Source: an uncultured Cetobacterium sp. | GTDB taxonomy: Bacteria; Fusobacteriota; Fusobacteriia; Fusobacteriales; Fusobacteriaceae | Reading direction: 5' to 3' | Length of the DNA stretch: 38,297 bases | Assembly: GCF_947038635.1 (NCBI RefSeq) | Contig: NZ_CAMQXC010000009.1 | Span: 1 to 38,297, forward strand | Shown here: positions 1,215 through 5,648 of the stretch, piece by piece | Position numbering within the stretch: the first letter of the stretch is position 1 | Layout of the letters: each line of letters opens with the position of its first letter | Notes under the pieces: generated by a model | Told to the model about the DNA's origin: nothing | Database searches by the model: none | The model's input: only the letters and a program-made list of their open reading frames with translations | Position numbers and translations under genes: made by a program

Positions 1215-1243
1215 TTGACAAAATTATTTTCATATGTTACCAT
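1215..1243 (+). promoter_or_regulatory. Promoter of putP leader: TTGACA (1215-1220), 17-nt spacer, extended -10 TGt-TACCAT (1235-1243)
   Basis: Direct reading; start of transcription predicted around 1250, just upstream of the leader ORF Shine-Dalgarno (aaaggagag 1261-1269). Confidence 0.7.
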
Positions 1244-1274
1244 AATGAAAATAAAAAATTAAAGGAGAGTTCTA

Positions 1275-1334
1275 ATGAGAAAAGATCAAGTTATTTCAAA
1301 TAATGTAAATAGACAACCCATCCCCCCTAGATAG
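1275..1334 (+). CDS. Putative leader peptide MRKDQVISNNVNRQPIPPR* with clustered proline codons (CCC ATC CCC CCT)
   Basis: ATG at 1275, strong SD aaaggagag 6 nt upstream, stop TAG 1332-1334; Pro codons at 1317, 1323 and 1326. Confidence 0.7.
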   Translation: MRKDQVISNNVNRQPIPPR

Positions 1335-1510
1335 GGATTTGTGTTTTAAGCATTAGTTTATGTTTAGATACAGATCCATTTTGTGTTACGATTTTGGATC
1401 TGTATCTAAGGGGAAATAACTTTTAATGAAAGATTATTTTTATAGGATTCTTTTAATGAGGGTCACTTAGGTACAAAACTGTACTTGAGTGGCCCTCTTT
1501 TATTTTTATT
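1335..1510 (+). promoter_or_regulatory. Putative transcription attenuator: alternating pairings A(1335-1346):B(1366-1377), B(1364-1378):C(1395-1409), C(1401-1410):D(1466-1475), D(1458-1474):E(1481-1497)
   Basis: Hand-checked complementarity: A:B 12 contiguous pairs (3 G.U); B:C 15 Watson-Crick pairs; C:D 10 pairs (1 G.U); D:E 17 pairs (3 G.U) followed by ttttattttt. Confidence 0.7.
1458..1510 (+). terminator. Rho-independent terminator in putP 5' UTR (gagggtcacttaggtac-aaaact-gtacttgagtggccctc + T tract)
   Basis: 17-bp stem, 6-nt loop, followed by ttttatttttatt; lies upstream of the putP RBS. Confidence 0.88.
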
Positions 1511-1532
1511 AAAAATTTGGGAGGAGTATAAG

Positions 1533-3456: not shown

Positions 3457-3577
3457 AAACTCTCCTTAAAAAATTTTTATCTAAATTGTACTTAAAAAAT
3501 ATAAATAAATCAAGGTTAATTTAAAATATATTTTGTTCACTTATTGTTTAAAACTTTTAAAAATGAAGTGATTATAG

Positions 3578-3583
3578 TATAAT
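3578..3583 (+). promoter_or_regulatory. -10 element (TATAAT) upstream of cobalamin riboswitch
   Basis: gattatagTATAATaagacg. Confidence 0.45.
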
Positions 3584-3585
3584 AA

Positions 3586-3755
3586 GACGTTATGGTTTTC
3601 ATAAATTAAAAGGGAATTAAGTGAAAAGCTTAAACGGTCACGCCACTGTAAAATGGACAAAAATAGATAAACCACTGGGAAACTGGGAAGGGCTATTGGA
3701 GGAAGAAGTTGAGTCAGGATACCTGCCATAAAAATAAACTGCGAGTGACAGAATG
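3586..3755 (+). ncRNA. Cobalamin (adenosyl-/B12) riboswitch
   Basis: Conserved blocks: aaaagggaa; cggtcacgccactgt; gagtcaggatacctgcc (B12 box region); directly upstream of a TonB receptor start at 3771. Confidence 0.92.
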
Positions 3756-3770
3756 GGAGGATTAAATTAA

Positions 3771-5648
3771 ATGAAAAAAAGATTTTATATTGCAGGCTTG
3801 ATTATTGCATCTAGTTTAGCAATGGGACAAGAAAAGGTTGTGAAATTAGAAGAAAGTGTTATAACAAGTGAAAACACAGAGACTACAATAGCAGATATAC
3901 CTAAAAATGTAACTGTATTAACAGGGGAAGAGATAACACAAAGAGGAGCAAAAACAGTAGCAGAAGCTTTAAAATTAGTATCAAGTGTTATTGTAAAAGA
4001 GATGGGTGGAGCAGATGCAGCTTTTGATATAAGAGGTCAAGGTGCTACAGCAAAATCAAATGTTATAGTATTAGTTGATGGGGCTCCAATTAATTCAATT
4101 GATCTATCAGGATACCAGACAAGTAATATTCCAGTAGATAATATAGAGAGAATTGAAGTAATCCCTTCAGGTGGATCAGTTTTATATGGGGATGGAGCAG
4201 TTGGTGGAACAATAAACATTGTAACAAAAGCACCCGAAGATAAAAAGAACTATGGAAGTTTAAATAGTGAAATAGGTTCTTATGGACTAAAAAAACAACA
4301 ATTTACATATGGGACTAAAATAGGAGAAAAACTTTTAGTTGAAGTAGATTATTTAAAAAGAGAGAAAGATGGCTATAGAGATTATTCTAAAGATGATTTA
4401 GAAAGTTTTGGATTTAGAAGTAGATATAAACTTAATGATGGAGAGCTAAAATTTAAATATAATTATTCTAAAAATAGCTTTAAAGCACCTGGAGCATTGA
4501 CTAAGGATGAAGTTGATGATGATAGAACACAGTCTAACCCAAATGCTTGGAGAGTTGATGGGAAAACTGAGAAGAATAATTTTGTAGGAGATTATTTATA
4601 TAATATAAATTCTAATTTAGAGTTTAAATTATTAGGAAGATACGCTCATGAAAACTACTCTTCAAATGGAAGTAACTATAAAACAGAAGTTAAATATTTA
4701 AAACCACAATTAAAATATTCATACTTAGATGAGAGTTATGTTGTATTTGGTGGAGATATTTATCAAGGTGAAACAAAAGATTTTGCTTATGGAAATGGGA
4801 AATCTGAAAAAAACTCTTTAGGTGGATTTTTAATAAATAGTTATACAGTTGATAAGTTTAGATTTACTCAAGGATATAGAAGACAAAATATTGAATATAA
4901 AGGGGATAGATTCACAACAAAAAAGTTTAAAGAAGATGCCATAGAACTTACAGGAAGTTATTTATATTCAGATTCAGGTTCTACATATATAAGTTATACA
5001 AAAGGATTCAGAGCGCCAAATACAGATGAAATAAATGCTTGGGCAGGAGAATTTAATCCTCAAAAAACAGAAACTTATGAGATCGGAATAAAGGATTTTG
5101 TAGGTAATACCTATATTTCAACATCAGTATTTTATATAGAAACAGAGAATGAAATTTTCTATGGAGTAAACAAAAATGATGAGTTTAATAAAAATAGAAA
5201 TTTAGATGGAACAAGTAAGAGAAAAGGAATAGAATTTTCTTTGGAACACTATTTTGATAAATTGACAATATCGGAATCAATAACTTATATGAAAACAGAA
5301 TTTAAAGAGGGAAAAGATATTCCAGGGATTCCAAATATAAAAGGAGTGCTAAACTTTAATTATAAATTTAATGAAAAATTAAGTATGAATAACTCTTGGG
5401 AATATTATGGAAAATCTTATGATAGTAATGACGAAGCTAATGAAAGAGAAAAAATAGATAGTTATTTATTAAGTGGATTAACTTTTGTGTATGATTTTCA
5501 AGATGGATTAGTTATAAATGCTGGAATTAATAATTTATTTGATGAAAAATATTATGATTATGTAGGGTATAGCAGTTATAGTAAAACTCGTAATTACTAT
5601 CCAGCACCAGAAAGAAATTATTATATTGGATTTAAATATAGTTTTTAA
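3771..5648 (+). CDS. btuB: TonB-dependent receptor, vitamin B12 transporter BtuB-like
   Basis: Signal peptide; plug domain VTVLTGEEITQRGAKTVAEALKLVSSV...IVLVDGAPINSIDLSGYQTSNIPVDNIERIEVIPSGGSVLYGDGAVGGTINIVTK; C-terminal beta-barrel ...YYIGFKYSF; B12 riboswitch upstream. Confidence 0.9.
   Translation: MKKRFYIAGLIIASSLAMGQEKVVKLEESVITSENTETTIADIPKNVTVLTGEEITQRGAKTVAEALKLVSSVIVKEMGGADAAFDIRGQGATAKSNVIVLVDGAPINSIDLSGYQTSNIPVDNIERIEVIPSGGSVLYGDGAVGGTINIVTKAPEDKKNYGSLNSEIGSYGLKKQQFTYGTKIGEKLLVEVDYLKREKDGYRDYSKDDLESFGFRSRYKLNDGELKFKYNYSKNSFKAPGALTKDEVDDDRTQSNPNAWRVDGKTEKNNFVGDYLYNINSNLEFKLLGRYAHENYSSNGSNYKTEVKYLKPQLKYSYLDESYVVFGGDIYQGETKDFAYGNGKSEKNSLGGFLINSYTVDKFRFTQGYRRQNIEYKGDRFTTKKFKEDAIELTGSYLYSDSGSTYISYTKGFRAPNTDEINAWAGEFNPQKTETYEIGIKDFVGNTYISTSVFYIETENEIFYGVNKNDEFNKNRNLDGTSKRKGIEFSLEHYFDKLTISESITYMKTEFKEGKDIPGIPNIKGVLNFNYKFNEKLSMNNSWEYYGKSYDSNDEANEREKIDSYLLSGLTFVYDFQDGLVINAGINNLFDEKYYDYVGYSSYSKTRNYYPAPERNYYIGFKYSF

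Follow-up and report, generated by a model that had tools for sequence, protein, structure and literature searches.

In the proteobacterial his, trp, leu and thr attenuators, a leader ORF that contains regulatory codons is combined with hairpins that exclude one another and with an intrinsic terminator. Proline codons can serve in such a leader: mgtL is the proline-codon leader of Salmonella mgtA, and its leader-ORF Pro codons affect downstream transcription, although the gene concerned encodes a Mg2+ transporter rather than a proline transporter and the RNA is a different one. The T-box (RF00230) likewise senses tRNA charging and controls amino-acid genes by antitermination, but it binds the tRNA directly; T-boxes are absent in the Fusobacteria and Thermotogae genomes of PMC2494555. 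Leader attenuators are known in Proteobacteria and Actinobacteria, and leaders with His codons before hisZ or his operons in Firmicutes (PMC2965389, PMC9413887); the parts of these two papers on which we draw concern histidine only and do not include Fusobacteria, the trpB motif or other codon versions. The trpB motif (RF04312), with over 900 members from Firmicutes and Fusobacteria, starts with a hairpin whose right shoulder contains the antiterminator and continues with a terminator (Narunsky et al. 2024, PMC11109978). It was published without a described leader ORF and was classed as a strong riboswitch candidate, classic attenuation not being ruled out there (PMC11109978).

Here we describe the leader of putP in a 38,297 nucleotide stretch of DNA from an uncultured Cetobacterium sp. 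(the window; contig NZ_CAMQXC010000009.1). The best explanation of our observations as a whole, and on comparative sequence grounds a very probable one, is that this leader works as a ribosome-mediated transcription attenuator with charged tRNA-Pro as its signal, and that it represents one form of a codon-swappable chassis, present in Fusobacteriota and some Firmicutes, that also underlies the trpB motif. It has the ORF, hairpins and terminator of the proteobacterial attenuators and differs from them in its five-segment chain plus a further segment, Z, and in the use of one chassis for many amino acids. A first-pass annotation of the window had proposed a proline attenuator here and knew of no description of it for this lineage. 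In the open-access literature we found no description of an attenuator at putP or in fusobacteria (the broad attenuation survey of Lopatovskaya et al. 2010, cited in PMC4833913, was outside this scope), but part of the element is in Rfam as the trpB motif; nor does it stand alone, as it is one member of a family with other codon runs. If correct, our interpretation would place leader-peptide attenuation in the Fusobacteriota, where T-boxes are rare, would add a proline version that controls proline uptake, and would readily explain an orphan riboswitch candidate.

Parts and fold of the putP leader

All of the features below are on the + strand of the window, and direct reading confirmed the coordinates given in the first-pass annotation for the promoter, Shine-Dalgarno (SD) sequence, 19-codon ORF, segments A to E and terminator. 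The promoter (1215-1243) has TTGACA at 1215-1220 and TACCAT at 1238-1243 with 17 nt between them and matches 10 of 12 consensus positions in a promoter scan, and relatives retain a -35/-10-like pair. The SD sequence aaaggagag (1261-1269), which corresponds to an SD-like purine run upstream of the ORF in homologues, precedes the leader ORF MRKDQVISNNVNRQPIPPR (1275-1334); this starts with ATG at 1275 and ends Q-P-I-P-P-R-stop (TAG, 1332-1334), and its Pro codons are CCC at 1317, CCC at 1323 and CCT at 1326.

Five segments then form a chain of alternative partners as follows: segment A (1335-1347) is the partner of B (1364-1378), which can pair with A or C, and both are supported by pair registration, covariation and constrained folding; C (1395-1410) can pair with B, D or Z (covariation, Z/C pairing test and constrained folding); D (1458-1475) is at once the 5' arm of the terminator and the antiterminator partner (covariation, folding and terminator scan); and E with its T tract occupies 1480-1505 (folding and terminator scan). 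The predicted intrinsic terminator (1458-1497) has 18 pairs and is followed by the T tract. Beyond these five segments there is an extra helix, Z:C, conserved in many family members; Z (1317-1334, codons CCC ATC CCC CCT AGA TAG) comprises the regulatory codons plus Arg-stop and is complementary to the 3' half of C and its flank (1403-1414). The putP gene follows at 1533-2966, and its product scores 609 bits against the sodium/proline symporter model NCBIfam TIGR02121 (curated cut-off 515.5).

The structure of the RNA from 1250 to 1532 goes beyond chance: its folding energy is -89.2 kcal/mol, compared with -54.9 +/- 4.6 kcal/mol for dinucleotide shuffles (z = -7.5; 0 of 200). The leader is not a dispersed repeat, as the genome holds a single full copy. 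An Rfam scan at the gathering threshold gave a cobalamin riboswitch as its sole match and none at the putP leader, where a relaxed threshold gave matches at chance level only. Rfam scans of the leader loci found no match to His_leader (RF00514) or to the other proteobacterial models of the his, trp, leu and thr set (RF00512, RF00513 and RF00506). The T-box model RF00230 had no match at the window leader or in the window's genus and scored above its cut-off in 2 of 61 family genomes. The cobalamin riboswitch (RF00174, 90 bits) is at 3576-3744 on the + strand, upstream of a TonB-dependent receptor-like gene (3771-5648).

Conservation, alternative pairing and the proposed switch

In 25 Fusobacteriaceae genomes there is a PutP orthologue that is 60-100% identical. 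Of these 25, 22 have the leader upstream of putP, always with an ORF that follows an SD, and the close orthologues that do not have it are those of loci L015, L016 and L027. The leader peptides vary outside their C-terminal end (MRKDQVISNNVNRQPIPPR, MIKKVLLSITLNPMVP, MLYSSILLPVYPIVP and MKRFLIADVNPTVPRVDLH), and P-x-[P/V/M]-P is invariant in all 22. In every one of the 22 leaders the first Pro is encoded by CCC; this codon makes up 3 of the 341 Pro codons in the window's genes (0.9%), and UGG is the only tRNA-Pro anticodon found in the sister genome G005. A sensor of tRNA charging would be expected to favour just this, the rarest codon placed where sensing takes place. The number of Pro codons in the putP leaders, two or three, is smaller than the His, Asn and Tyr runs of other versions, and this counts against the attenuator. 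A screen of 79 loci for putP leaders beyond the Fusobacteriaceae gave five matches, none with the PxxP-plus-hairpin pattern.

In genus g5 (L019, L020, L021, L022, L023 and L024), the interval from the terminator to putP holds another short ORF (M..KVPR/G...), which has an SD of its own and a single Pro codon. L017 and L018 have similar short ORFs with a Pro codon just upstream of putP; tandem translational control is possible at these loci.

Is it the codons or the peptide that matters? P-x-x-P is the sole peptide feature common to the genera, and the sequence by itself cannot separate a codon effect from a peptide effect. In a TnaC-like nascent-peptide arrest, the P-x-x-P peptide together with free proline would stall the ribosome at the stop codon, where it would cover A and cause termination, so that proline itself would be sensed. 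Six leaders do end in ...P-stop (L017, L018, L023, L025, L026 and L028), and the g1 leader peptides are kept over most of their length. We nevertheless consider such an arrest quite unlikely: the residue past the last Pro is variable (stop, R, N, K or L), a rare codon that never varies (CCC) speaks for decoding and not for the chemistry of the peptide, and the same chassis accompanies the unrelated peptides HHHHHR, NNNNN, MMMMLW, YYYYY and WQNWRR. Alternatively, any slowing of translation in the leader, whether by EF-P shortage or antibiotics, might turn putP on with no amino-acid specificity, because a stall anywhere upstream of A would have the same effect on the RNA, and the window leader does contain a Pro-Pro pair. 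Such a general stress sensor is very improbable, given that most putP leaders outside g1 are P-x-V-P and avoid the Pro-Pro pair and that the codons match the amino acid in the other versions. EF-P limitation, which the first-pass annotation had offered as an input, is for the first of these reasons unlikely to be the main one. The avoidance of Pro-Pro outside the window's genus may reflect the fact that such a pair would stall ribosomes whatever the proline supply.

Pairing was counted in 14 distinct sequences whose segments were registered by hand, because a whole-leader MAFFT alignment placed C wrongly in several rows. With the proviso that hand registration favours the structure and limits these counts, 96.7% of cells are paired in B:C, 92.9% in C:D and 95.1% in A:B, the pairs altered on both sides number three, three and two, respectively (the changes in A:B are mostly of the G.U type), and slid registers are all far poorer (13-62% paired for B:C and C:D and 18-56% for A:B). 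In L025 and L026 a U-A to G-C change keeps C:D and breaks B:C at the same position of C, which argues for selection on the antiterminator itself. The Pro ORF and compensatory stem changes were what the first-pass annotation had put at stake, and the homologues retain both, the changes being in B:C and C:D. Its placement of A directly after the leader stop codon is correct in the window's genus; outside that genus the stop is found upstream of A or within it (peptides ending ...PRVDLH-stop and ...PRVPLGDLYL-stop).

The two conformations that the first-pass annotation predicted were reproduced by constrained folding of the nascent RNA up to position 1476: a ribosome mask over the Pro codons gave A:B (12 pairs) plus C:D (10 pairs), a mask reaching to the stop gave B:C (15 pairs), and the unmasked RNA also gave B:C (15 pairs). 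The full-length leader RNA adopts the terminator fold in all three ribosome states, and the choice between folds must therefore be a kinetic one. When minimum-energy folds were computed with a generic stalled mask, C:D appeared in 29 of 67 family elements, and in 3 of 67 without a mask; thus, the switch is not recovered in every case by folding at equilibrium.

From these alternatives we infer the following switch. When Pro-tRNA is ample, the ribosome would reach the leader stop codon and cover A, B:C and then the D:E terminator would form, and transcription would stop upstream of putP. When it is scarce, the ribosome would stall at the CCC codons, A:B would pair, and C would be free to capture D, so that the terminator would be blocked and putP transcribed. 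The SD-preceded short ORF with codons matched to the amino acid of the downstream gene (Pro and putP in 22 of 22), the covarying terminator and antiterminator helices, which exclude each other, the constrained folds, and the match of codon to gene in the other versions all support the proline attenuator of the first-pass annotation, the last of these being independent and the strongest.

Versions with other codon runs and the trpB motif

A covariance model built from the Pro leaders (R1) found 23 strong sites, all of them putP leaders (E <= 2.6e-13), and weaker sites with HHHHHR-stop leaders upstream of a His-type ABC transporter; a generic model (R2) and RF04312 widened the search. His versions precede the ABC transporter and hisZ, Asn versions (run NNNNN) asnA, Met versions metN, metG, hom (homoserine dehydrogenase) and metY (O-acetylhomoserine sulfhydrylase), Trp versions TrpX and an NSS transporter, Tyr versions tyrS and an AGCS carrier, and the mixed aromatic version DAHP synthase. 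These gene identities come from NCBIfam for one representative of most kinds and from sequence resemblance for the rest, the NCBIfam scores being below the curated cut-off for the His-type binding protein, hisZ and metN, and TrpX and tyrS having been scanned as fragments. The codon run thus tracks the amino acid of the downstream gene, which argues for sensing of charged tRNA. Within the phylum, the only match beyond the Fusobacteriaceae was in G081 (an HHHR leader).

The window's own genome contains a His copy (G000:C143:561-633, L177; peptide MSQLFVVLNSLHHHHRY) upstream of an amino-acid ABC binding protein gene. Tyr-run leaders (YYYYY, GYYYYYH) lie upstream of tyrosyl-tRNA synthetase at L340, L343 and L344. 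Since the amino acid can be read off the codon run, a leader would also indicate the substrate of a poorly annotated transporter, such as Tyr for the AGCS carrier and Trp for the NSS transporter. At L208 and L341, YYYYY leaders upstream of AGCS-family carriers suggest that the substrate of these is tyrosine rather than alanine, and the leaders NSFFFNSKFR, YYFSYFR and FYFSYFR, upstream of ABC transporter genes at L315 (a Tepidibacter mesophilus genome), L329 and L333, suggest a phenylalanine or tyrosine substrate. With such a natural series of re-specified attenuators, the joint evolution of codon choice and RNA pairing could be tested directly.

How does this family relate to the trpB motif? 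The putP leader fits the description of RF04312 in having two hairpins, the second a terminator and the first with the antiterminator in its right shoulder, before an amino-acid gene: B:C corresponds to its P1, D:E to its terminator hairpin and C:D to its stated antiterminator. The fusobacterial versions, including putP, differ in scoring under its gathering cut-off of 59 bits. The window leader was unlisted even at a relaxed E-value, its relatives scored 38-52 bits and several family loci 31-48 bits, and sub-threshold matches were present in 38 of 98 Fusobacteriota genomes. L337 and L338 (both from the window's genus) and L342 were rejected as attenuators, as were the weak Bacilli matches L331, L332 and L334; all six look like ordinary terminators, and L337 and L338 indicate that some RF04312 matches are not attenuators.

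Among 400 Bacilli genomes there were 11 RF04312 matches above the cut-off. Every one has a Trp-containing leader ORF (two Trp codons in 10), 10 of the 11 leaders end in W-Q-x-W plus a few residues with the stop about 15-21 nt upstream of the start of the RF04312 model, and a TrpX-like binding protein is encoded downstream of nine. Thus the model appears to start just past the sensing part, judging from the 11 members checked of the more than 900 published. Among the weaker Firmicutes matches, leaders upstream of hisZ-like genes contain HHH, and leaders upstream of transporters contain FFF or YYF runs.

The conserved, strong P1 (B:C) with its terminator, and the classification of the trpB motif in PMC11109978, might be taken to mean that the RNA binds proline or a protein directly and that the short ORF is incidental. 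This is highly unlikely in our estimation, because an SD-preceded ORF is found in every putP version as well as at all of the above-cut-off Bacilli matches, the gene is tracked by codon identity and not by the RNA core, and besides the paired segments no aptamer-like conserved unpaired core was seen. We think it likely instead that the riboswitch label of RF04312 is wrong and that the motif forms the downstream half of an attenuator chassis whose codons can be swapped, and which in Fusobacteriota and Firmicutes has been re-specified to respond to Pro, His, Met, Asn, Trp, Tyr or mixed aromatic amino acids; at every swap Z would have been matched anew to C, their pairing being a fail-safe that keeps untranslated RNA OFF.

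Pairing of segment Z with C

Z:C excludes C:D, so in several versions it would keep C from D in ribosome-free RNA and could hold the switch OFF when the leader is untranslated, and a ribosome on the regulatory codons would free C from Z. In the window, Z:C is missing from the minimum-energy fold because B:C wins; since B:C already keeps C from D, Z may matter little there. Is the pairing specific to each leader? Cognate Z/C pairs average -10.9 kcal/mol, compared with -7.3 kcal/mol for reshuffled partners (0 of 5000), and the advantage holds separately inside the His set and inside the Pro set (0 of 5000 each), sequence kinship not having been removed from any of these comparisons. The same reshuffling gave no cognate advantage in the Met set and a weak one in the Asn, Trp and aromatic fusobacterial sets. 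The Bacilli Trp leaders, again with kinship not removed, have a mean Z:C energy of -14.9 compared with -6.5 for shuffled Z (0 of 300).
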